This document shows, one piece after another, positions 8,856-55,110 of a stretch of DNA of 64,000 nucleotides. Within the stretch, counting starts at the first letter, position 1; every line of letters starts with the position of its first letter. Source of the stretch: Chloranthus sessilifolius. Taxonomy: Eukaryota > Streptophyta > Magnoliopsida > Chloranthales > Chloranthaceae. A model generated the notes under the pieces. It was not told the origin of the DNA. It searched no databases and was given only the letters and a program-made list of their open reading frames with translations. The stretch is taken from NCBI GenBank assembly GCA_021018995.1, contig CM037587.1:61602104-61666103 (forward strand). The letters are read 5' to 3'. A program made the translations under genes and the position numbers.

Positions 8856-9043
8856 TTCCCCCATACCTAAGCTTTGCTAGTCCCTGAGCAAAGGAAGAAT
8901 AAAGAAAACTAAAATGCCACTTTTGTAGGGAGCATAAATGCATTTAGCATATGCATCAAGCCTTTTAAACCCCTAGGTGATCCCTAGTGGAGGAGTGAAG
9001 TCTCCTGAGGGTTTTCAGTGAAGGTACCCACAAACTTCTCCAA
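8856..9043 (-). promoter_or_regulatory. Polypurine tract and conserved stem-loop module, family A
   Basis: Reading on the - strand toward the LTR: AGGAG/CTCCT stem (about 8989-9004), CTAGG/CCTAG stem (about 8971-8985), hairpin I at 8938-8956 (ATGCAT, loop ATGCTAA, ATGCAT), hairpin II at 8872-8893 (CTTTGCT, 8-nt loop, AGCAAAG), then the purine tract TAGGTATGGGGGAA touching the LTR. The purine tract primes plus-strand DNA. The hairpins recur at the same place in B, C and D; their function is not known to me. Confidence 0.8.
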
Positions 9044-10629: not shown

Positions 10630-13622
10630 TTATTGACAGGCATCATCAGGCCAATCATACAAATCTGCCAAAAATTTCAAATCATCCTTGGATAAAGGTG
10701 CTTTTCTTTTAGGTTGGGACTTCTTGGTGGACTGAGTGGGGGCCTCCTCAAACTGGGCAGCAGATTTCTTATCATTCTTAGCAGAAGCAGCAAGAGAATC
10801 AGAATCGGAATCAGAAGGGAAGAGGGCAGTAGGATCTAGGCCAAGGCCAGCAGCAGCTTGCCTTCTCTCCTCCTTGGAGAGTAGAGTGGAGGAGGTGCCT
10901 TATGGGGGTGGGGGCTTGGTGGGGGCTACCTCTTCAGACTGGGTAGAAGGTTCCTTCCCTATACTATGAGTAGAAGCAGAGGAAATAGATCTCTTTGCAG
11001 TAACTTTTCTCTTTGTATAAGTCCTCTTAGGTTTTGGGGGATTAGGTTGAATGGAAGGAGGATCTTGGGCTGGAGGAGGGGGCACATCTACAGGCAGGGT
11101 AGGAGTAGGTTGAGTGGCAGGAGGGTTGAAAGGAGGAGCGTAGTAAGAGAGGTTGGTTGAAATGGTTGAGAGGTTAATGATGCAACTTTTCTCTCTAGAA
11201 TGTCGATTTTCTTCACTGCCCAAAGCAAGTTGGACTCAAAGAGTTCCTAGGTGGCCGTAAGTATCTCCTGAGCATTGGCTAATTTATTTTGGAGAAGCTC
11301 AGCAGTCTTCTTCTCAAACTTGGCAATGCGAGTATGAGCATCAGCAAGTAGTTTGGCGGACTCATAACGAGTCAGGATTTCCTTCCACCCCTGGGAGATA
11401 TCCCAGAGCTGGATTCTTTGCTCCAATTCCATGAGAGAAATCCTCTCCTCATAGGAAACTTTCAGGAATGCTCGGAGGGCAGCCATACCAGTCAGGACAT
11501 TCCGACGGATGTAGGGGTTGTCCCTCATTGCATACAGCAGAGTGAGGTAAGGGGAAATGTAGATGGGGGATCTGAGTACAATGGGTAAGGAAAGGGGTGG
11601 AGTGGAAGATGAGGAGGTGGTGGAGAAAACCAATTCCTCAAGTGGATCAGTTTGAGTTGAGGCATCTGTGAAGACAGGTGGAGTGAGAGTGGGTGGTTGG
11701 GTGGTAGGTGACACAGAAACTTCAGTGGCTACTATTGGAGGTGATGGAGGGGTAAAAGATGGGGATGAGATAGGTATGGGGGAAAATGGAGCTGCTACCT
11801 CCTCAGATTGGGTAGCAGCTATGGGAGGTGGAGCTATGGGTGAAGATTGAGGAGATAAATGAAGAGGTGATTGGACAGGAGAAAGAGGGGAAGTGTGAGG
11901 GGGTTGGGGAGTTGAAGAGGATGGGGTAAGGGTGAACTGAATGGATTGAAGGCAGGAGCTCATGAGGGCTTGGTTATTGGTGTTGGTGGTCAATTGAGTT
12001 TGAATGGACTATAATAGGGAGAGGATTTAAGTGAAAGTATCAGGAATGGTGGGATTAGAGGGGACTGGTGTTTGAATAGGGTGGAAAGGGGAGGAGGGTG
12101 CATGGTTGAAATGAGGGGGGTTGGGGTGTGGGGATTCAGGGAGTGGGGTGTACTCATGCCCAACATCTTCCACAATATATGTCATGAGGGCAGTGAACCC
12201 AGTAGTGGTAAACTGGTCTAAGCCCTGGGTATGAAGGAAGGGTTGGTGAGGGGGAAAGTCAGAAATGGGTTGGTCAAAGGGTGGAGAAGAAAGGGTATGG
12301 GTAGGCTCTGGTAGTGTTGGAGGTTCAAGGACTTTAAGTTCGAGAATTTGAGTGGTGGGTAGAGGTAAAACTGGCTCAGAGGTAGGGGGAGGGGGGTCTG
12401 TTGGAAGAGGGACTAATACAAAGGGGAAAAGCAAAGTCGGTGGAGGTGTTGATGATGATGTAGGTAAGGTAGGTGAAAGGATGGACGAGGGTATCTCAGC
12501 AGTAAGATCCGCTGCAGTGGTAGTGGGCACCTCCTCCAACTCACCTGGCTTACTCTTCTTAATCAAGGTTAGGCTGGTGGACCATGCCCTTCTTCCATAC
12601 ACTTTTGGAGTCAGCTTCTCGATTGGCTTATTCCTTTTAACCAAATATTTCCCAGCCTTGAGAAAACATGTAATGAGTCTGTTGAAAGGCAACCCAGCAC
12701 CTTTAGCAAATGCATGTCTTTTAAGCACCTTATCATTAATGTCTACCATTATCTCCAAAATCAGTTGTGGTGCACTTAAAAAATACCTTTTTGAAGAGTA
12801 GTACAAAGCATCTACAACTAGGGTCCTTCTCTTCTGCAGGTGCCCAGTGACATACACATTCTTTCTCAGAATAGTGTCGATGAATCTAAGGTAAGGTTGG
12901 AGGTCTCTTCTCATCAAAGATTCACCAGATCCCACAATTTCATTGGCGAGATGTTTAGCCATTTCTCTGGATGTAGCCCATTTGGGTGCTCCCTCAGATC
13001 TAGTGGAGTCAAATTGATGTGGAACTCCCAAAGCCATCTCAATGTCTTTGCAATCCACAGTGATTTGTCAATCATCAATCAGAATTTCCAGCAAAGCCTC
13101 ATTCCCAGGCACCACCTTATTTTTCAAATTCTGGTACCACAATTTAACCAGCTTGGGGTACACAGTCTCCTTCAAGGGTTTAAGTAGGGGTAACAATCCC
13201 TCCTTTAGATATATTAGTGTCCCCTAGCATTCCTCTATCTCAGTAAAGTATGCAAGATCAAAATCTGTGTCAGGGATAAGGCTCAACCCATTCACAAACT
13301 CATTAGGGGTGGTTAATGCAGTAGGAAGCTCCACTGCATGTAATATGTCAGGGTTGGGCAAAGGTGTTTCCCCAGTTGGAGCAGATCTCTCCATAGGTAT
13401 TTCTGCATCAAGCTCCTGAATTGCAACAGACTTGGCTTTTTTTGCTTTAGAAGCCTTCTTTAGCTTCCCCTCAGGAAGTTTCCTCTTGGTAGGTGGGTTT
13501 GTGGTAGGCTTTGATTTTTTGGATGACTTTGAGGTGGAAGAAGTTAGTTGCCAAAATACGTCACCTAGGGTTTCTTCAGAATCGACCATTATGCTCTCAG
13601 AAATTGATCTCTTAAAGCTCAC
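10630..13622 (-). pseudogene. ORF3 (env-position ORF with plant transposon protein-type domain), family A
   Basis: One long frame of roughly 1000 codons reads leftwards from an ATG at 13622 to TAA at 10630, interrupted by in-frame stops near 13221, 13060 and 12020 and one frameshift near 11225. Order: Ser/Lys-rich N-terminus with a KKSK/KKAK basic stretch; a conserved core with YPKLVKLWYQNL, then DIEMALGVP, LQPYLRFIDTILRKNVY and H-L-Q-K-R-R (about 13150-12530); a very Pro/Ser/Thr-rich middle (12500-11000); an acidic tail ending LADLYDWPDDA. The core resembles the 'putative plant transposon protein' domain found in Athila third ORFs. No signal peptide or membrane segment is evident, so an envelope role is not supported. 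Confidence 0.75.
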
Positions 13623-16232: not shown

Positions 16233-16424
16233 CACCCCCAAACCTAATCTTTGCTAGTCCCTTAGCAAAGCTACATTAAAATAACTACAGAATTTAAATG
16301 CCACTTTCGTAGGGAGCATGGATACATTTAGCATATGTACCAAGCCTTTTAAACCCCTAGGTGATCCCTAGTGGAGGAGTGCAGTCTCCTGAGGGTTTTC
16401 AGTGAAGACACCCACAAACTTCTC
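16233..16424 (-). promoter_or_regulatory. Polypurine tract and conserved stem-loop module, element C
   Basis: Purine tract (- strand) TTAGGTTTGGGGGTG abuts the LTR. Hairpin II is at 16249-16270 (CTTTGCT, loop, AGCAAAG). Hairpin I is at 16322-16340: stem GTACAT/ATGTAT (one G-U pair) and loop ATGCTAA. The CTAGG/CCTAG and AGGAG/CTCCT stems follow at about 16355-16390. Same order and spacing as in A, B and D. Confidence 0.8.
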
Positions 16425-38144: not shown

Positions 38145-38325
38145 CACCCCCAAACCTAATCTTTGCTAGTCCCTTAGCAAAGCTTTAACTAATTAAATGC
38201 CTCTTACGTAGGGATCACGGGTACATTTAGCAAATGTACCAAGCCTTTTAAACCCCTAGGTGATCCCTAGTGGAGGAGTGAAGTCTCCTGAGGGTTTTCA
38301 GTGAAGATACCCACAAACTTCTTAA
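38145..38325 (-). promoter_or_regulatory. Polypurine tract and conserved stem-loop module, element B
   Basis: Purine tract TTAGGTTTGGGGGTG (- strand) touches the LTR. Hairpin II 38161-38182 (CTTTGCT, loop, AGCAAAG). Hairpin I 38221-38239: stem GTACAT/ATGTAC, loop TTGCTAA, extendable because of the adjoining A/T bases. Then CTAGG/CCTAG and AGGAG/CTCCT stems to about 38290. Confidence 0.82.
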
Positions 38326-41831: not shown

Positions 41832-43701
41832 TCAGTTTAATGAATGGTGCCCTTGAAAGTGAATGGTATCCATAGGTTCAGCAGGTTTTTCTAAACAAGG
41901 CTTAAGCCTCTGACCATTCACCTTTAAGGTTTTCCCAGACTTGGGATCCTTGATTTCTACAGCACCAGATGGGGAAACATTCATGACAATATAGGGACCT
42001 TCCCATCTAGATTTCAGTTTGCCAGGAAAAAATTTAAGTTTGGAGTTAAACAACCAAACCTTATCACCAGCCATGAAGCTCTTTCTTAATAAACCCTTGT
42101 CAAAGAAAGCCTTGGACCTTTCCTTGTATATCCGGGCATTGGCGTATGCATCCATCCTCAGCTCATCCAATTCTGACAACTGCAACAACCTGTGATGACC
42201 AGCAGAAGTTAGGTCTAGATTTAAATTTTTAATGGCCCAATAGGCCCTGTGTTCTAACTCTACTGGGAGATGGCAAGCCTTGCCATAAACCAGTCTGAAT
42301 TGGGACATCCCAATGGGAGTCTTATAGGCAGTCCTATATGCCCACAATGCATCATTTAGCTTTTCAGCCCAGTCCTTTCTTTCAGTCCTCACAGTCTTCT
42401 CAAGGATGTGCTTGATCCCCCTGTTAGAAATTTCAACTTGCCCACTGGTTTGCGGGTGGTAGGGAGTAGCTCTCGCAATGGGAGTAGTCCTTTCTGTCTA
42501 TGGGTGACAGAATATTTCTTGAGCAAGCTCTTGAAAAGTTGTAGAAATGGTTACCCCCATCACTGATAATGGCTCTAGGGGTGCCAAATCTGGAGAAGAT
42601 ATTCTACTTTACAAACTTGGGGACAACTTGATTATAATTGGTTCTTATGGAAATAGCTTCTACCCATTTTGAAACATAATCTACTGCCACTAAGATGAAA
42701 TGATAACTATTTGAAGGAGGAAAGGGGCCCACAAAGTCAATACCCTAGACATCAAACAGTTCCACAACAAGGATGGGCTGCAAAGGCATTGAGTTTCTTT
42801 TGGACAGCCCTCCTAATTTCTGACATCTCTCACATGTCCTGCAGTGTGTATTGACATCTCTGAATAAAGAAGGCCAATAGAACCCACACTGCAAGATTTT
42901 ATCAGCTATTTTTCTTCCACTAAAGTGGCCCCCACAGGCATTTTCATGGCACATGGCCAGAATACTAGGGACATCACTTTCTGAAATATATTTTCGAATG
43001 ATTTGGTCTGCATAGTACTTGTATAAGTAAGGTTCCTCCCAGAAAAAGAATTTGACCTGTGAGAAAAATAGGTCTTTGCCCATTTTGGTCCAATGGGCAG
43101 GAATCTTGCCTATAACTAAATAATTTACAATGTGTGCATACCAAGGAACCAAGGATTGGATGGCAAACAATTGCTCATCTGGGAAAACATCATTTGCAAG
43201 GTCATCAACACATTTTTCTAACACAATTCTGGACAAATGGTCAGCCACCACATTTTCTACACCCTTTTTGTCCTTGATTTCAATGTCAAACTCCTGCAAC
43301 TGGAGTATCCATCTAATCAGCCTGGGCTTAGCATCTTTCTTGGAAAATAGGTATTTTAATGCTGAGTGGTCTGTGAAGATTCTAGTTTTAGACCCAAGTA
43401 GGTAAGGTCTAAATTTATCAATAGCAAAAACCACTGCCAGAAGCTCTTTCTCAGTTGTGGTGTAATTCAGCTGAGCTTCAGCAAGTGATTTGCTGAGATA
43501 GGCAATGACCATTGGCAGCTTATCTTTCCTTTGGCCCAAAACAATACCTATTGCCAAGTCAGATGCATCACACATCAGCTCAAAGGGTAGTGCATAGTCA
43601 GGTGTTTGGAGTACAAGGGCAAAGGTGAGGCATATCTTTAAAGTTTCAAAAGCCTTAAGATATTCAGCAGAAAAATCAAAGGGCACATCCGGACATAGCA
43701 G
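41832..43701 (-). pseudogene. RNase H and integrase of element B
   Basis: Open frame 43701-42745 carries [39 protein letters not shown] (RNase H catalytic D, E, D), VVADHLSR, then the integrase zinc part H-E-N-A-C-G-G-H and C-R-T-C-E-R-C, ending at a TAG in L-F-D-V. Core motifs follow: G-I-D-F-V-G, I-S-D-G-G-N-H-F, with a frameshift near 42470-42540, then G-Q-V-E-I-S-N-R. The last frame 42392-41832 has [15 protein letters not shown] and RWEGPYIV. Frame is continuous with RT at 55111 once D and one TSD are removed. Confidence 0.88.
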
Positions 43702-43706
43702 GTGGC
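43702..43706. repeat. Left target-site duplication GTGGC of element D
   Basis: Exact repeat at 55106-55110; interrupts the RT-RNase H linker of B. Confidence 0.95.
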
Positions 43707-45110
43707 TGATGAGTAGTGAAATATGATGATATTTCACCCCTAAATACCTATATTTAGCCGTCCGATGAAGGCTATCTGATGAGATTTGCTAGATTTGAAG
43801 TGTTTCAGGTAAATACAGTCCAAGTTTCTAAAACAGCCCAAGAATCCCGAAAATAATGTCAAAACACTGCTATTTTGGGTCATTGAGAACTTAGTGCGAC
43901 TTGCAGCTCAATTTGGACCTTCAAGACGTCAGATTCAGGAAATTGCTAAAACATAAAAGTTGTAGAGCTCGTCGTCAGCTTTCCAACGCCTCAAGAATCA
44001 CCTCAATCCGAGTTCGGTACAGAAAGTTATGAGCAAAATACCGAGGCAGTATCTGATGCAAAGCTAGGCGGGAATTCACGAAAATTACTCTTAGATGTCA
44101 ATCGAGAGAGGTATTAGGGTTAGGCTATTATAAAAAGGGAAGCCACGAGTTTCTTAGGATCATTATTATTTTTTGCAATTAGAATATTATTCATTCTTTC
44201 TTTTTAGTTTTTAGGGCTCTTCACTTTGGGGGAATATTTTCTTCATCTTTTCAAGTCTTCTTCTCTCCTTCTTCTAGGGTTTATTCAGGGTAGATTGTAC
44301 CTAGGATTTGCATTATTTTTCTCTGTGAAATTCATAGATTGTATTTAGGAAAAACAATTGCAAATATCTTTTGGAAGAAATAGAAGAGGAATGACTTTGA
44401 AAGAAAAAGGAGATCAAACACCAAAGATGAGCGGCTAAATCAGTAGATCGGGGAAGATGCGATCCCCAGATAAGTACCTATGTTTATGATTAATACCACA
44501 GTCTATTATTGTTATCATGGAATCGTTTTGCTCAAAGTTTGTGTGATTGAAAATATTTTAAATGCTTTGTTATGACCGTTGATTGCGCGTATCAACGGCC
44601 GTAATCGCTAGATCTGGACCTGCAGGCTGATCTAGGCTGTAGAGCGATTATGTGCTGATTGTCGTGATCTAAATATCATGAGATACGCTATGCTTTTTAC
44701 ATGACTCATACCGCAATGTTAGGCTGAGTCATTGTTTTTAGATAGGGTATGCCGGATTGATGAACATATTTTATTTCAAGTCATTTGTCTAGATGAATGA
44801 TGGTGTGAATGATGATTTAATGAAGCGTGGGTTTTAATGATAGAAAAGTGTCGAATAAGGTAGCATATTCCTTGATCTCATTTAATATTGTTCGTAGATT
44901 TATCGATAATTAATTGTTTAGATTAATTTATTTTTACGCATTTAGGAAAAGTGCGTTAAGTTTTGGTAAAATTGAATCGCCTTTGGTACTTCCTTAGGGA
45001 TGTTTTAAAATCTCTAAAGAATTAATTAAAATTCACGTTTCCTGGGTTCGACACTTCTTGCCATATGATAGATCTTGTGCACTTGCAAGGGTTACATTCT
45101 AAATCGATCA
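43707..45110 (+). repeat. 5' LTR of element D
   Basis: TGATGAGTAG...AAATCGATCA. Near the 5' end an inverted repeat GTGAAATAT/ATATTTCAC (43717-43738) is followed by CACCCC. Telobox TTAGGGTTAGG at about 44114-44124 and TATA box TATAAAAA at 44129-44136. Confidence 0.95.
44129..44136 (+). promoter_or_regulatory. TATA box of the D 5' LTR
   Basis: TATAAAAA five bases after a telobox-type TTAGGGTTAGG. The same pair is in the 3' LTR at about 54110-54131. Confidence 0.65.
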
Positions 45111-45942
45111 AGTTTTTTAGGCGCATTCTTGAAATCGGTGAAATTTTGATTAATTCGGATAGGGATTTTTCTGTTTTGAGTGTTTAAAAAAAATAAAAAT
45201 AAAAAAAAATAATAATTATTAAAATTTATTTCCCTTATTTTTCTCTCTTTGATAAGATTTTGTGGAGTCTTTTTAGGAAGTTTAGATTGTTAGGATACCT
45301 TCCTTAGGAAATTTAGGAAGTAGAGATTTTAGGACTTTTATTTTAGATTTGGTAGGACTCTTTTCCTTATTTTCCTCTTTTAGATATTTTTAGGATTTTC
45401 TAAATTTAGTCATTAACTTTATTGGGTCTTTTGTTTTAGGATTTTTAGGAATCTTTCATTCTTCTCCTTATTTTTCTCTTTTAGGAAAGATTTTATAGGA
45501 TTTTCAATTTTAATTTTTAATTTTCGAATTTAATAAAAAAAAAAAAAAAAATTAAAATTAAAAAAAAATTTAAAAATTTAATTCAATTTAAAAAAAAAAA
45601 AAAAAAAAAAAGAAAAATTTAATTAATTTAAATTGAATTTTAATTTTAATTTGAATTTAAAAAAAAAAAAAAAATTTTTTAATTTAAATTGAATTTTAAT
45701 TTTAATTTGAATTTAAAAAAAAAAAAAAATTTTAATTAATTAATTACTTAATTTAAAGTTTAATTTTAATTTTAATTTTAATAAAAAAAAATTAATTTAA
45801 AATTGGATTTTAAGTATAAAAAAAAAAAAAAAAAAAAAAAGAAATCTTTCCTGGATATTGACTCATTGTTGTTTAAATCGTTTGAAGCAGAATTTTGTGG
45901 GTTCGTTGTGGATTCTTCAACCCTGTTTGTGAGTGTTGGTGT
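45111..45942 (+). other. Leader of element D: decayed primer-binding site and long A/T-only tract
   Basis: Spacer AGTTTT at 45111-45116 is normal, but the primer site reads TTAGGCGCATTCTTGAAATC and matches tRNA-Asp only over GGCGC. From about 45186 to 45840 the sequence is nearly pure A and T with many A-runs; a unit of about 55-60 bases ('aattgaattttaattttaat') is repeated at about 45620-45670, 45680-45725 and partly 45755-45805. No gene. Confidence 0.75.
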
Positions 45943-47520
45943 ATGAGCTTTACTCGTTCTCATCACCCACAACTGCTACCGCTTAATCTTGAGACCGAAA
46001 GAGCTTGTAGAGAGAATCGAAGAGTCAGGAGGAATCAATATCAACAAACGAGACCATGGCGGACCAAAGGCAAGAGAGATGAGAATAACAACAATGGGAA
46101 TGTCAATAATGGAAATAATAGGAACAATAATTTTGATGAGGCCCTAGAACCGGAGTATTATAACGATCCTGGTTTTACGAGGATCGAGAATGTATTATGC
46201 ATGCTCCCATTCAGGAACCACTATGAATTCAAATCAAAGAATGATTCAAATGCTACCAATTTTCCATGGGTTAGCAAATGAAAATCCATACGTTCACTTA
46301 AATGAATTCAACGGGTATGCAAAATGTTTGAGTCCACAATGTCACGATGAGATAGCGAAGCTCAGGAGCTCTTTCCGTTCTCTTTAAGAGATAAAAAAAA
46401 CATGGTTCTATTCCTTAGAACCACAATCTATTCGAGTTGGGCGTAGCCGCATCGCCGCCTTAAAAATATTTTCCCATGACTAAGGCCATTGAATTGCGTC
46501 GGAAGATCCAGTTCTTTTCCCAACAACCTCTGAAACATTCCATGAATGTTGGGAGCGTTTAAGGAATTGATCGAAGTTGCCCAAATCATCAAGTTCCAAG
46601 GTGGCAACAAGTCCAAAGTTTTTACAATGGATCGATTCTCAAGAGACGCATGGTTGATGCATCTTGTGGTGGATCTTGTGCCACGAAGAAGCCGATTTAA
46701 TTGGGCATTGTTTGAAAAGTTATATCAAACTTGATACAAAGTGAGACATCACGAACCAACTTGAACTGGCACCTAAATCTCATGTGTTGACAAAAGGCGG
46801 ATTGTACGATGTCAACAATAATGCCTCAGATCTCTCAACAAAGTTTTACATGCTGTCCAAACAGATGAAAAAGTTGTTAGCTGCTACCAAGCAAGCTAAA
46901 ACTCCTGTCACCCCCACAGTGTGGTCCATTTGTGACCACCCAGGTCATAAGGCTAATGAGTGCCCTACTACCTTGTCATTCTTCCCTGATGAACCTAATC
47001 CTCAACAGCAGGTAAATGTGACTCAATCTTATCGGTGGTAGAAACATGTACTCCAATTCCTACAATCCGGAATGGAAAAATCACCCCAACTTAGGATGGG
47101 GTGAATCGAACCAAACTGGCCAGGTAAACCAGCATCATAGAGCCAACACAATGGGTGGACAACAACCTTTTCAACCAAATTTTCAACACAATTTTCGTCC
47201 ACAATGTAATTTCCGGTGAATTCTAATTTCCAAGCAATTCCAATTTCAGAATGCTCAGTATTATCATCCAAATTCGACTCTAGAAAAATCGAATTTCAAT
47301 CAGAATCTTAATCAATCTCATGCCAGTACTTCGAAAGATTCTGATCTGGAAGAAAAGCTTATGCGAAGCATGCAATCTTCGAGATGATAATGGACCAAGT
47401 CATCAATTGGCCAATCAACCGAGTCAAGGTAGGCTCCCAACCCATCAATAATCCTCGAGGCCAAGCACCATCTCAAGCGGGACCATCGAATAGTCAAGCT
47501 TGAAAGTCACATTACGGTCT
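45943..47520 (+). pseudogene. Gag of element D (broken)
   Basis: Start at M-S-F-T-R-S-H-H-P-Q (45943), inside a longer frame from 45895. Blocks in changing frames: Arg/Asn-rich N-terminus with an N-N-N-N-G-N stretch, M-L-P-I-F-H-G-L, LRLFPFSLRD-like near 46365, VDASCGGS near 46650, and a knuckle I-C-D-H-P-G-H-K-A-N-E-C near 46930 whose first Cys is Trp-Ser. About six frameshifts. The tail 47520-47760 is a purine-rich Glu/Lys-coding run. Confidence 0.75.
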
Positions 47521-48560: not shown

Positions 48561-49660
48561 CTATGAGGACAAAGGGCTTGAAAGGAAGCGGAAGAGAAAA
48601 GTCAATCTCATCATGTGAGGATGATAAGTTATCTGAAGTTGTGACTAAGGTAGTACCACTACCTACTGAGGTAAAGGATGTGCTGACTCCATCAATTGAG
48701 CAGCCACCAACTGTGGAATTGAAACAATTGCCTAAGTCCCTCAAATATGCTTTTCTGGGACCTCGAGAAACACTTCCAGTGATAATTTCATCCACATTAT
48801 CGGAAGAACAAGAGAATGATTTGTTGAAGGTCTGCCGAAGAGCACAAGGAGGCCATCGGATGGACCTTAGCGATCTCAAGGATTGACCCATCGGTATGTA
48901 TGCATAAAATACATCCGGAGGATGAGAGTAAACCATCGAGGGAACCACGAGGCGACTTAATCCGAACATGCAAGAAGTCGTTTTAAAGGAAATCATTAAA
49001 CTCCTCGATGCTGGAATCATCTATCCGATCTCTGATAGTGAATGGGTTAGTCCAGTACAAATCGTTCCGAAAAAGTCTGGAATTACAGTGAAAGAAACTA
49101 CGGAGGGAGAATTGGTGCCCGCTCGTGAACCTACTGGATTGCGTGTGTGCATTGATTATCGAAAATTGAACACGACCACCGAAAGATCATTTTCCCTTCC
49201 GTTCATTGATCAAATTCTTGAGAAGTTAGGGCAAGAGTTTTATTGCTTTCTTGATGGTTATTCGGGATACAATCAAGTGCGTTTTCCGGTGATCAAGAGA
49301 AGACAACATTCACGTGTCCATATGGTACGTTTGCATATCGAAGGATGCCATTCGGCTTATGTAATGCTCCGGCCACGTTTCAACGATGTATGTTGGCCAT
49401 ATTCTCGGACATGATCGACAAATTCATCGAAGTCTTCATGGACGACTTCTCGGTATTTGGAAAAACATTTAATTCTTGTTTGAATCATCTTTCACAGTGT
49501 TGCAACGCGTTGTGTAGATTCCAAACTTGTTCTCGGGAAAAGAGCCATTTTATGGTTCAACAAGGAATTGTGTTGGGGCATATTGTTTCAACGAAAGGAA
49601 TTGAAGTTGATAAAGGCGAAGGTCGACTTAATTGCAAATTTACCACCTCCTAAAAGTGTT
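48561..49660 (+). pseudogene. Reverse transcriptase of element D (broken by small indels)
   Basis: KQLPKSLKYAFLG (48720) leads in. The frame 48968-49414 holds LLDAGIIYPISDSEWVSP and VPKKSGITV, LRVCIDYRKLN, then FSLPFIDQIL where the usual HFPLPF is shifted by one missing C in a C-run. F-L-D-G-Y-S-G-Y-N-Q, MPFGLCNAPATFQRCM (49345) and catalytic F-M-D-D-F (49435-49449) follow. Athila-type RT. Confidence 0.85.
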
Positions 49661-50370
49661 GACAAATTCGATCATTTTTGGGGCATCTTTGGATTTTATA
49701 GAAGATTCATTAAGGATTTTAGCAAGGTGGCTAAACCATTGTGCACTTTGCTTGGCAAAGATGTTCCTTTTGATTTTGATGAGGATTGCATAAAGGCATT
49801 CCTAAAATTGCGTGAACTCTTATCAAATGCACCAATAATCCAACCACCGGATTATTCTTTACCATTCGAACTCATGTGTGATGCATCTGATTATGCGATC
49901 GGAGCTGTCTTAGGGCAAAGGGTGAATAAATTACCTCACGTAATTTATTATGCTAGCAAGACATTAATTGATGTGATCAACTGAATTCCACCACCACCGA
50001 GAAGGAATTATTAGCTGTGGTGTATGCTCTGGACAAATTCCGTTCCTATTTGCTTGGATCGAAAATAGTGGTCTTTTCAGACCACTCTGCTTTGAAATAT
50101 CTTTTAGTAAAGAAGGATGCGAAACCAAGGCTGATCCGTTGGATCCTGCTTCTCCAGGAATTCAACTTTGAGATTAAAGATAAAAAGGGGGTTGAGAACG
50201 TTGTGGCTGATCATCTGTCTAGAATTCTGCCTGAAGAATCATCTATACCTGAGACCATCCGTGACACATTTCCGGATGAACATTTGATGGCAATTGATGT
50301 AGGTGCAAAAGTTCCGTGGTTTGCTAACATCGTGAATTATCCGTCATCGCGTAATTCCCAAGTGGGGTAA
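49661..50370 (+). pseudogene. RNase H of element D
   Basis: [18 protein letters not shown] near 49870, [15 protein letters not shown] near 49990 (a one-base indel before it), [12 protein letters not shown] near 50070, then [17 protein letters not shown] and [13 protein letters not shown]. All three catalytic acids are present. The single break near 49980 is a missing base. Confidence 0.85.
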
Positions 50371-51567: not shown

Positions 51568-53497
51568 AGAGGTCGGTATCGACACTTAAACTTCGGTAAC
51601 TTCACGGGAGGCAACCCAGTGTGTTTTATTTAGGAGTTGGACACGAGGTTTAGTTTAGGATTTAGGATTTATTTCTCTTTCGTATGTTTAGTTCTAGAAT
51701 ATTAGTTTTAGTTTAGTTTAGGTTATTTTAATTTCCAAATTAGTGTAGCCACATTACCTTCAATCTATTTTTGGTCATGTTCTAATTTGATGCCCATATT
51801 CTCTTTTGATCTTTGTGTTGAGGTACTTTTCAACAGTTTGGGGTACCTACTTATTTCAAACAATGAGGACATTGTCATTTTTAGGTTTGGGGTATGTATG
51901 ATTATCTATCTTTCATCACTTATTTTGATTTTCTTTGAAAAAAAAAAAAAATTTTTTGGAACCATCATACATGATTTACTTTGCAATAGTTTTCAAACTT
52001 TAGTTGATGATGCATGTGAATTTAATTTTGAGAATATTGATGTCATATTTTGAATACTTGTATCTAGGATGATGAGGCTTAATGTGATAATTTGTGGAAG
52101 ACTCAAATTCATGCTTAGAATTTTGCACTTATACCAAGCTAAGACTTAGAAATCGATGAACTATTTTGAGCGTTGAATCTTAGGTTCTTAGTGGAGACTA
52201 AACCCGATAGCTTTAGAGCTAATTTCCGTCATTGATGAGTGAATATATAAACTCGAGTTTTCTTTGAATCTGAATTATTTTGCATAATCTCATACATTTT
52301 ATTTTGGCTTGTGACTTTGCATGATATCAAATTCATATTATTGTGTTAGAACGTACTGTATATCTACTCAAGACAAATAGGCAAGGTTACCATCTTTTAA
52401 GGAAATGATTGAAGGCCATCTTTGGCTCGTTTGTGCTTGAAATGCCCCACCTCATATAAATTTATCCTTCTAGTACCCCTTTGAGCCTATAGAAAAATTT
52501 ACCCTTATACATTCTTTGATAAGCCACGTTAACTTTAACCCTTCACAATTTCTGAAAATTTAGCTTTACCTTCTTATTTCGAGAAATTAGGAACGAGGGA
52601 TGAAAATGAGCGAAAAGAGAGTAAGTGGAGAGATAATGAGTTATGGTGTTTCGAGAGTGTATGGCAAATATAAAAAAGAAAAAAGGAGAGAAAAAAAAAA
52701 AAAAAAAAAGGAATGAAAATGAGGTGCTTCAAGAAAAGAAAATTCAAAGAGAAGAAAGAATGAGAAAAGAAAATATTGAAAAAAAAATGGTGAGAAATTA
52801 GAAAAGAAAAAAAAAAGAAAAGAAGAGAAATAAAAAAATAAAAAAAAAAATCAGAAGTTAGTTCCTTTTCCAATTTCTCAGAAATTTTGAATCACAATTC
52901 CCTTTCTTTCTTACCCTTACCTGAGCCCCATTACAACCCTACAAAAGACCTTCATGATCCGATCTTGCATTGGTAACTGTCTTGTGGAGAGTCAATATAT
53001 AATACTTATGACACTTGATATGACATGCTTAGGATATACAAGTATCTGTTCTTATGAGATTTATTTTTGTTCATTGATTGCATCGTGTTTCATTTATCAT
53101 GTGAGACCTTTTTATTTGCTTTGTATTGATCTCTCACATGTGCGAAAACTTACCAATCATCGGAGTGATTTTATTTTGAGAGTATACCTAAAGTGAGGAT
53201 TGAGTCAAGACAACAGATCCGATGATTTCCCGTTTGGACTAGTTCTGAGATGGATGAATCTTGGTTTTGGTATGCACACACTACACGTTTAAGCATGAAT
53301 GGATGAGTTATCTAACGATTTGGAGCATTAGACTAATTTGAATGGATATTGGTATGATTAGTGTAACATTGTTATTTAAAATTGAGAATTTGCATGTTGA
53401 ATTGATTATTGATTTTGAGCTTTGAAGTGAAATATATGTTATACAAATCACATTTCCAACCCTCAATTTCACCGATGGTCTGAAATCTTTGGAAGTT
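51568..53497 (+). other. 3' non-coding region of element D
   Basis: About 1.9 kb with no ORF3. It begins with 'cacgggaggcaacccagtg', then AT-rich sequence with a purine-rich, A-run stretch at 52570-52860. The + strand frames 51787-52053 and 52954-53196 have no known features. Athila-type elements without ORF3 are known. Confidence 0.7.
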
Positions 53498-53701
53498 TGT
53501 GGGTAACTTCACTGCAAACCCCCAGGAGACACAACTCCTCCACTAGGGATCACCTAGGGGTTTAAAGGCTTGTTGCACATGCTAAGTGCAATCGTGTTCC
53601 CTACGAAAGTGGCATTTAAATTTTAGGATGTTAGTTTGATTTGCTTTATATTTCTATCATTCTCTTTGCTCGAGGACTAGCAAAGTGTAGGTTTGGGGGT
53701 G
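53498..53701 (+). promoter_or_regulatory. Polypurine tract and conserved stem-loop module, element D
   Basis: AGGAG/CTCCT stem at 53524-53539, CTAGG/CCTAG at about 53543-53557, hairpin I at 53573-53591 (TTGCAC, loop ATGCTAA, GTGCAA), then CCCTACGAAAGTGGCATTTAA, hairpin II at 53664-53685 (CTTTGCT, CGAGGACT, AGCAAAG), and purine tract TAGGTTTGGGGGTG ending at the LTR. Same order as A, B and C although the rest of the 3' region does not align. Confidence 0.85.
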
Positions 53702-55105
53702 TGATGAGTAGTGAAATATGATGATATTTCACCCCTAAATACCTATATTTAGCCGTCCGATGAAGGCTATCTGATGAGATTTGCTAGATTTGAAGTGTTT
53801 CAGGTAAATACAGTCCAAGTTTCTAAAACAGCCCAAGAATCCCGAAAATAATGTCAAAACACTGCTATTTTGGGTCATTGAGAACTTAGTGCGACTTGCA
53901 GCTCAATTTGGACCTTCAAGACGTCAGATTCAGGAAATTGCTAAAACATAAAAGTTGTAGAGCTCGTCGTCAGCTTTCCAACGCCTCAAGAATCACCTCA
54001 ATCCGAGTTCGGTACAGAAAGTTATGAGCAAAATACCGAGGCAGTATCTGATGCAAAGCTAGGCGGGAATTCACGAAAATTACTCTTAGATGTCAATCGA
54101 GAGAGGTATTAGGGTTAGGCTATTATAAAAAGGGAAGCCACGAGTTTCTTAGGATCATTATTATTTTTGCAATTAGAATATTATTCATTCTTTCTTTTTA
54201 GTTTTAGGGCTCTTCACTTTGGGGAATATTTTCTTCATCTTTTCAAGTCTTCTTCTCTCCTTCTTCTAGGGTTTATTCAGTAGATTGTACCTAGGATTTG
54301 CATTATTTTCTCTGAAATTCATAGATTGTATTTAGGAAAAACAATTGCAAATATCTTTTGGAAGAAATAAAGAGGAATGACTTTGAAAGAAAAGGAGATC
54401 AAACACCAAAGATGGCTAAATCGATAGATCGGGAAGATGCGATCCCCGGATAAGTACCTATGTTTATGATTAATACCACATCTATTATTGTTATCATGGA
54501 ATCGTTTTGCTCAAAGTTTGTGTGATTGAAAATATTTTAAATGCTTTGTTATGACCGTTGATTGCCGTATCAACGGCGTAATCGCTAGATCTGGACTGGT
54601 GATCTAGGTGTAGAGCGATTATGTCTTTGATTGTCGTGATCTAAATATCATGAGATACGCTATGCTTTTTACATGACTCATACCGCAATGTTAGGCTGAG
54701 TCATTGTTTTTAGATAGGGTATGCCGGATTGATGATCATATTTTATTTCAAGTCATTTTTCTAGATGAATGATGGTGTGAATGATGATTTAATGAAACTG
54801 TGGGTTTTAATGATAGAAAAGGGGTACGAATCTGGGGTAGCATATTCCTTGATCTCATTTTAATATTGTTCGTAGATTTATCAGTAATTAATTGTTTAGA
54901 TTAATTTATTTTTCTGCATTTAGGAAAAGTGCGTTAAGTTTTTGGTAAAATTGAATCTGCCCTTTGGTACTTCCTTAGGGATGTTTTTAAAATCTCTAAA
55001 AGAATTAATTAAAAATTCACGTTTCCCTGTGGGTTCGACACCCCTGTTCTTGCCATACTGCAATAGATCTTGTGCACTTGCAAGGGTTACATTCTAAATC
55101 GATCA
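53702..55105 (+). repeat. 3' LTR of element D
   Basis: TGATGAGTAG...AAATCGATCA, followed by GTGGC. Identical by eye to the 5' LTR over the first 480 bases, then differs by many 1-4 base indels and few substitutions. Confidence 0.95.
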
Positions 55106-55110
55106 GTGGC
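55106..55110. repeat. Right target-site duplication GTGGC of element D
   Basis: Exact copy of 43702-43706. Confidence 0.95.

Follow-up and report, generated by a model that had tools for sequence, protein, structure and literature searches.

A short hairpin with compensated stem changes near the 3′ ends of Ty3/gypsy retrotransposons in Chloranthus sessilifolius

In the 3′ non-coding region of plant Ty3/gypsy retrotransposons from C. sessilifolius we find a 7-bp hairpin (hairpin I) whose stem letters change between copies while the pairing is kept, more often than a tree-aware null predicts. Hairpin I is very probably a selected hairpin of the sense RNA. The best overall explanation, to which we give a probability of about one half, is that hairpin I acts in cis as a stem-loop within the genomic RNA, where it is most likely recognized by Gag in trafficking or packaging; we file it under the known class of cis-acting RNA stem-loops of retroelements. 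The matched stem changes suggest that the RNA of these elements needs the hairpin shape to copy itself. To our knowledge, the signals that act in cis in plant LTR retrotransposons have been little mapped, though such elements fill plant genomes. A short hairpin that is backed by covariation and present in tens of thousands of copies is a concrete target for studying how such RNAs get selected, and a structural marker for divergent relatives once their LTRs cease to align.

Hairpin I in four nested elements

The window, that is, the whole stretch of DNA analysed, comprises 64,000 nt of the forward strand of C. sessilifolius (assembly GCA_021018995.1, CM037587.1, positions 61,602,104-61,666,103). 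It contains nested plant Ty3/gypsy LTR retrotransposons, in direct and inverted copies. A Pfam scan of 20 of its 21 ORFs detected pieces of RT, RNase H, integrase and gag, with protease matches that were weak and under the curated cut-off, and a protein search with the window ORFs gave named relatives from plants. The RT/RNase H and integrase domains are of the Ty3 type and place the elements in Ty3/gypsy, an assignment made from the domains of each ORF and not from their order across stops. Specifically, the ORF at 42745-43788 (-) holds RT_RNaseH and Integrase_H2C2 domains and, going by its place and strand, we infer that it belongs to element B, while element D carries an RT_RNaseH_2 domain at 49484-49984 (+). 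The name 'Athila' for these elements is plausible but unproven; Pfam ATHILA had no match among the 20 of 21 ORFs scanned. Element D is an LTR retrotransposon by its LTR pair and short target duplication:

43702 to 43706 and 55106 to 55110: target duplication of element D, 5 bp, GTGGC
43707 to 45110, + strand: 5′ LTR of element D
53702 to 55105, + strand: 3′ LTR of element D, 95.6% identical to the 5′ LTR

The sequence AGTTTTTTAGGCGCATTCTTG follows the 5′ LTR of D and does not clearly match the tRNA-Asp end. Directly after this LTR, the region 44000-46000 has a GC content of 0.283 and nested poly-A/T repeats.

A preliminary description of this DNA had placed hairpins at 53573-53591 (+) in D and at 38221-38239, 16322-16340 and 8938-8956 (all -) in B, C and A, and we located all four at these positions. 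A seventh, basal pair extends the stem by one position on either side, formed by the G (or A) that precedes it and the T or C that follows:

53572 to 53592, + strand: hairpin I of element D, 7-bp stem of a basal G.U and TTGCAC/GTGCAA, loop ATGCTAA
38220 to 38240, - strand: hairpin I of element B, basal G-C and GTACAT/ATGTAC, loop TTGCTAA
16321 to 16341, - strand: hairpin I of element C, basal G-C and GTACAT/ATGTAT including one G.U, loop ATGCTAA
8937 to 8957, - strand: hairpin I of element A, ATGCAT/ATGCAT, loop ATGCTAA

The separate words are not unusual in the window, WTGCTAA being found 25 times (25.4 expected) and AAGGCTTG 5 times (3.9 expected). It is their arrangement that is unusual: AAGGCTTG-N6-WTGCTAA occurs 18,695 times genome-wide, against 2 for the reversed pattern. 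All genome counts refer to the window's own genome (2.17 Gb), a single genome, and those for large families are lower bounds. Searching the window with a covariance model returned the four known hairpins (E 4e-6 to 2e-4), the next best hit having E=1.5; the model was trained on 56 typed, hand-picked hairpins with many unpaired forms left out, and the four window hairpins are in this training set or one letter away, so the search shows only the absence of a near-scoring fifth copy. A search of the window against Rfam, at gathering thresholds, yielded 0 matches.

Compensated changes in the stem

The stems seen include TTGCAC/GTGCAA, TTGCAT/ATGCAA, GTACAT/ATGTAT, GTACAT/ATGTAC, GTGCAT/ATGCAT, ATGCAT/ATGCAT and TTACAC/GTGTAA. 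Pairs 1, 3 and 6 covary, pair 1 taking the states T-A, A-T, G.T and G-C, pair 3 the states G-C and A-T, and pair 6 the states C-G and T-A; pairs 2, 4 and 5 hold one main type each, and the basal pair 0 occurs as G.T, G-C and A-T.

We compared these changes with a null based on a tree of the block from which the hairpin had been removed; in each of 2,000 runs every column received as many changes as it shows, placed randomly on the branches, which sets the floor of p at 0.0005. The hairpin had been named beforehand from the four window copies, and these make up 4 of the 146 distinct blocks obtained from 152 sequences, all of which could be placed. Across the 146 blocks, 95.2% of the stem cells are paired vs 76.2% under the tree-aware null (p=0.0005), and the seven pairs taken jointly reach p=0.0005 both for association and for pairing. 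Association of single pairs in this set is carried by pair 1 (p=0.0005), pair 6 (p=0.0045) and pair 3 (p=0.019); pairs 0, 2, 4 and 5 give no association signal, with p=0.31 for pair 0, whose pairing has p=0.021. The sense pairing also has p=0.0005 in 126 rows, after removal of 20 picks with rare stems, and in a subset of 48 rows not searched by loop; five other seeds, run 1,000 times each, all gave the lowest attainable value, p=0.001. When the register is slid, only 21-49% of cells pair in the 146 blocks and 13-48% in a set of 94 distinct hairpins.

Likewise, all 94 distinct hairpins are paired in 93.2% of cells vs 82.4% in shuffles and contain 80 double-side changes vs 35.1, values reached by 0 of 500 shuffles in either case. 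No excess over shuffles is seen in this set for the count of doubly changed pairs (3 vs 3.7) or for that of pair types (12 vs 12.6). These figures supersede a count on the 56 hand-picked hairpins (94.1% paired and 55 double-change cells, vs 83.6% and 23.5). A blind scan of 19,110 column pairs in a wider alignment of 85 distinct rows, from the 91 of 92 sequences that could be placed, ranked pairs 1 and 6 first and third; their E-values, E~0.5 and 1.8, reflect the small number of independent events.

Compensated stem changes exceed the tree-aware null, as expected of a structured RNA under selection. The preliminary description had read stem changes that stay paired as pointing to selected structure, a reading that would fall if changes in many copies were compensated no more often than by chance. 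This comparison has now been run, within one genome, and the reading survived it (p=0.0005) and is supported.

Counts over the whole genome bear on single pairs. For pair 6 in the TTGCAY/RTGCAA context, T-A occurs 5,033 times, C-G 2,393 times, T.G 63 times and C.A 34 times (T.G vs C.A, binomial p=0.004). Changes on the left side of pair 2, by contrast, were found in just 267 copies; among the 100 listed, the partner is by reading nearly always unchanged, as expected from decay after insertion, and at least one of them, C5:18227394, has a compensated C-G.

Fixed G.U and A.C states bear on which strand folds. In one reconstruction, considering clades of at least three rows, pair 1 changes from T-A to A-U, from A-U to G.U in three clades and the reverse in two, and from G.U to G-C in two; pair 3 changes twice from G-C to A-U; pair 6 changes once from U-A to C-G and has one U.G clade of three; and the steps at pair 0 lead from G.U to G-C and A-U, while a single one, in a clade of 4, leads to G.A and is the sole break at this clade size. 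The clade-level steps in the stem mostly keep pairing. An alternative tie-break takes one pair 1 path via T.T, so the ancestral steps of this pair are not unique. Clades of two include one C.A at pair 6, and changes at pairs 2, 4 and 5 are confined to single rows. At pair 1, G.U is fixed in three clades, of 53, 4 and 4 rows, and at pair 0 it is the root state; because G.U is fixed in these larger clades and A.C in one two-row clade only, the sense RNA is favoured.

Over the 146 rows, the sense reading, with G.U counted, gives 0.952 vs 0.762 under the null (p=0.0005), and the antisense reading, with A.C counted, 0.873 vs 0.716 (p=0.016); antisense pairing has p=0.001 with 126 rows and 0.0585 with 48 rows. 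The sense RNA is thus favoured as the folding strand, while antisense pairing also beats the null in the two larger sets. Among changed cells in the 146 rows, A.C outnumbers G.U at pairs 3, 4 and 6 (10, 13 and 5 over 3, 7 and 2), which we read as decay of single copies.

Predicted folding energies do not set hairpin I apart from shuffled sequence. Its sense z-scores are -0.49 (D), -1.57 (B), -1.50 (C) and -1.04 (A), and its antisense z-scores, -1.13, -2.19, -1.56 and -0.47 in the same order, are equal or better in three of the four copies. A 231-nt 3′ region of D likewise has a z of only -1.09, and neither this region nor the hairpin I copies were more stable than shuffles. The minimum-energy prediction for A is a different fold, and that for C keeps the inner pairs and shifts the outer ones. 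The prediction for this D region is a series of stems, AGGAG/CTCCT, CTAGG/CCTAG, hairpin I and a second hairpin (hairpin II), in addition to which a CCCYCA stretch pairs with the polypurine tract (PPT).

The loop, the 3′ block and copies across the genome

The loop had been described as an invariant (A/T)TGCTAA, and this was not borne out genome-wide: its first two positions vary, so that the loop is better written NNGCUAA. In 96 rows, position 2 is T in 70, C in 14, G in 8 and A in 4, and GCTAA is nearly constant; these rows were kept for CTAA or TTAA, the other 4 of the 100 listed having no hairpin. Several loop variants are common to the C-G and T-A states of pair 6 among the listed places. 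A fixed GCUAA on a partly free stem looks, from the sequence, like a putative recognition site.

Hairpin I lies in a conserved non-coding block that in these Ty3/gypsy elements stands upstream of hairpin II, followed by the PPT and the 3′ LTR, and it is ~60-100 nt upstream of the PPT in each of the four copies. In element D the parts are:

53493 to 53628, + strand: non-coding block holding hairpin I, ~136 nt, conserved among A-D
53524 to 53539, + strand: upstream stem Ha, AGGAG/CTCCT, stem conserved and loop variable
53543 to 53557, + strand: upstream stem Hb, CTAGG/CCTAG, nearly invariant
53664 to 53685, + strand: hairpin II, CTTTGCT/AGCAAAG, nearly invariant
53690 to 53701, + strand: PPT adjoining the 3′ LTR, nearly invariant, limits by reading
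53712 to 53731, + strand: further hairpin close to the start of the 3′ LTR, with matching LTR starts in A, B and C

The four copies of the block agree pairwise at 112-124 of 135-136 positions (83-91%), whereas the ~109 columns upstream of it have just 33-57 identities of 90-95. Hairpin I itself, with 12-17 of 19 identities, is mostly below the block average, yet its pairing is kept. By BLAST (E 1e-3), the LTR of D has no similarity to the ~1.5 kb that follow the PPT in A, B and C. Protein coding by the block was rejected: all four copies have stops in every frame, variation is highest at codon position 2, and the upstream open stretches span 0-33 codons in 57 copies. At 53493-53546 (+), a 17-codon open stretch before a common TAG reads alike in the four copies; its codon positions are un-gene-like.

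The neighbouring structures show too little variation for covariation to speak much either way. This holds for Hb and hairpin II, for Ha, in which three loop columns are 46-50% variable and differ between families vs at most 10% in stem columns, and for the conserved CCCYCA stretch ~170 nt upstream of the PPT, whose possible pairing with it extends, pair by pair, to 73-81 of 79-83 cells and has one double-change cell only. The hairpin at the LTR start reads TGAAA-UAU..AUA-UUUCA in D and TGAAA-AGU..ACU-UUUCA in B, C and A. In an uncontrolled count it fits 34 of 42 distinct LTR starts, and it shows matched changes at inner pair 1 (A-U 20, U-A 10) and inner pair 2 (A-U 16, G-C 9).

Genome-wide, a pattern with free stem and free loop has 24,711 matches vs 50 for its reversed control, and one that requires CTAA in the loop and excludes T as the first stem base has 12,274 vs 0; 99 of the 100 listed rows of the latter were used in typing stems and loops. 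An A preceding the stem adds 1,402 matches. A pattern with one changed flank has 390 copies, of which the ~100 listed are, by reading, known stems or decayed forms. The PPT pattern occurs at 13,498 places. Among the first 40 listed, 31 are by eye near a listed hairpin and the other 9 carry the hairpin once fetched; another 11 fetched PPT places carry hairpin I as well, by reading and some with a broken pair. Since the PPT places checked carry it, hairpin I is tied to this PPT and not merely to the search pattern. The loci fetched for several of these searches, those with 18,695, 24,711 and 12,274 matches and that for rare stems among them, all come from contig C1 and are not a random draw. On contig C5 (G000:C5:48509123-48563836), one strand carries five copies within ~55 kb that share a single decayed stem, which suggests local tandem amplification of an element-bearing segment.

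As to short non-autonomous carriers, the 3-kb loci L019-L086 with a placed hairpin were uninformative, only one of them, L033, having a direct repeat on both sides. Viral contigs had 0 matches for three specific patterns, and the flanks of 6 viral matches of a short PPT word look unrelated by reading. In bacterial and archaeal sequences the block had 0 matches and a short word 12; plasmids and phages gave no match.

Proposed role and relation to known systems

In a large group of plant Ty3/gypsy elements, we propose, hairpin I acts in cis as a stem-loop of the full-length sense (genomic) RNA, within its 3′ non-coding part. The 7-bp stem, with letters partly free as long as they pair, would present the single-stranded NNGCUAA loop, and GCUAA together with the near-fixed pairs U-A, C-G and A-U at positions 2, 4 and 5 would make up the putative binding site. 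Hairpin I may act as part of a 3′ module formed by Ha, Hb, hairpin I, hairpin II, the PPT and the hairpin at the start of U3. Recognition of this module by Gag, or by a host RNA-binding protein used by the element, would mark the full-length RNA for trafficking and packaging ahead of reverse transcription. The Gag/packaging role is tentative, clearly short of an even chance, and is suggested by analogy with Ty3 as far as the available text of the Ty3 papers describes it (PMC11381356, PMC4974528). A wider version is possible, if rather doubtful: a genome-sorting signal of plant endogenous-retrovirus-like elements, in which Gag or a host factor would select full-length RNA by the multi-hairpin 3′ module, with the NNGCUAA hairpin at its centre. 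As the module outlived the turnover of LTR sequence between families, this lineage could have had such a handle since ancient times, possibly throughout plants.

Hairpin I might instead serve mainly in RNA export, stability or translation, as a plant counterpart of the constitutive transport element, which in simple retroviruses lies between env and the 3′ LTR. Its place in the 3′ non-coding sense RNA, the lean towards the sense strand and the conserved loop suit such a role, but the retroviral element is much larger and the Rfam search of the window returned nothing at gathering thresholds; we regard this as possible and doubtful. A help in plus-strand priming, with 3′ structures that hold or expose the PPT, is unlikely. 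PPT cleavage acts on an RNA-DNA hybrid, where an RNA stem should be gone, and hairpin I leaves the PPT outside, at the distance given above. Nearness to hairpin II and the PPT speaks for it, as does the CCCYCA pairing, weakened by its single double-change cell; so does the Sirevirus inverted repeat, as described in the available part of PMC2829016. The Ty3 3′ UTR holds primer-binding parts, in the accessible portion of PMC4974528, and hairpin I could by that model be a second part of the primer binding site or, alternatively, a kissing partner of U3. This is very improbable: the best match of the block to this genome's tRNA-Asp is 6 nt, reached by 205-239 of 300 shuffles, a chance level that applies to tRNA-Asp only, which may not be the primer of D. 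TTAGC or TTAGT does occur in 29 of 42 LTR starts vs 14.1 in shuffles, but kissing of the loop GCUAA with UUAGC/U in U3 was set aside, the word being absent or displaced in the A-type copies read (such as window A, L066-L069).

Two further explanations dispense with an RNA structure under selection. As double-stranded DNA the stem is a palindrome with symmetric half-sites TRCAY, and Watson-Crick pairing alone beats the null (p=0.001), as a site for a dimeric DNA-binding protein might. The two half-sites would have to change together, however, the nearly constant GCTAA loop is asymmetric, and the fixation of G.U in the pair 1 clades and at the root of pair 0, against a single two-row A.C clade, speaks against a DNA site; we consider it improbable. 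Common descent with recombination among a few master elements, the pairing being unselected, could draw on the handful of clade-level events and on all-pairs E-values that are never below 0.1. Descent is already contained in the tree-aware null, albeit one without recombination, and pairing still exceeds it at p=0.0005, while slid registers pair far less than the true one, so this too has little probability. The cis-acting stem-loop of the genomic RNA remains the reading we prefer.

A hairpin of this form was not found described in the literature on the 3′ ends of Athila and plant LTR retrotransposons, coverage of which is thin for subscription journals. The constitutive transport element and packaging stem-loops of retroviruses mark the unspliced genome; hairpin I is, like them, a stem-loop of retroelement RNA and differs in size, sequence and host. 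At 7 bp, its stem falls short of what a microRNA precursor needs. In Athila6, a region 3′ of gag/pol, comparable in place to that of hairpin I, gives rise to a different product, the small RNA siRNA854, according to the available text (PMC3276544). Yeast Ty3 belongs to the same superfamily and has a structured genomic RNA, whose localization and packaging require both UTRs and POL by signals that are not precisely defined in the accessible parts of the reports (PMC11381356, PMC4974528). The 3′ elements named there are parts complementary to the primer tRNA and the PPT, and no such hairpin is among them in those parts; the window block, in contrast, lacks tRNA-Asp complementarity above shuffles. 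The nearest precedent, as far as the available text of PMC2829016 goes, is the PPT-side inverted repeat of Sireviruses (Ty1/copia), which carry it with multiple PPTs on the side of the 3′ LTR. In both cases conserved non-coding motifs, a stem-loop among them, persist at the 3′ LTR of otherwise divergent plant LTR retrotransposons; in Sireviruses the PPT lies within the stem, whereas hairpin I is free of the PPT, stands upstream of it and belongs to Ty3/gypsy elements.
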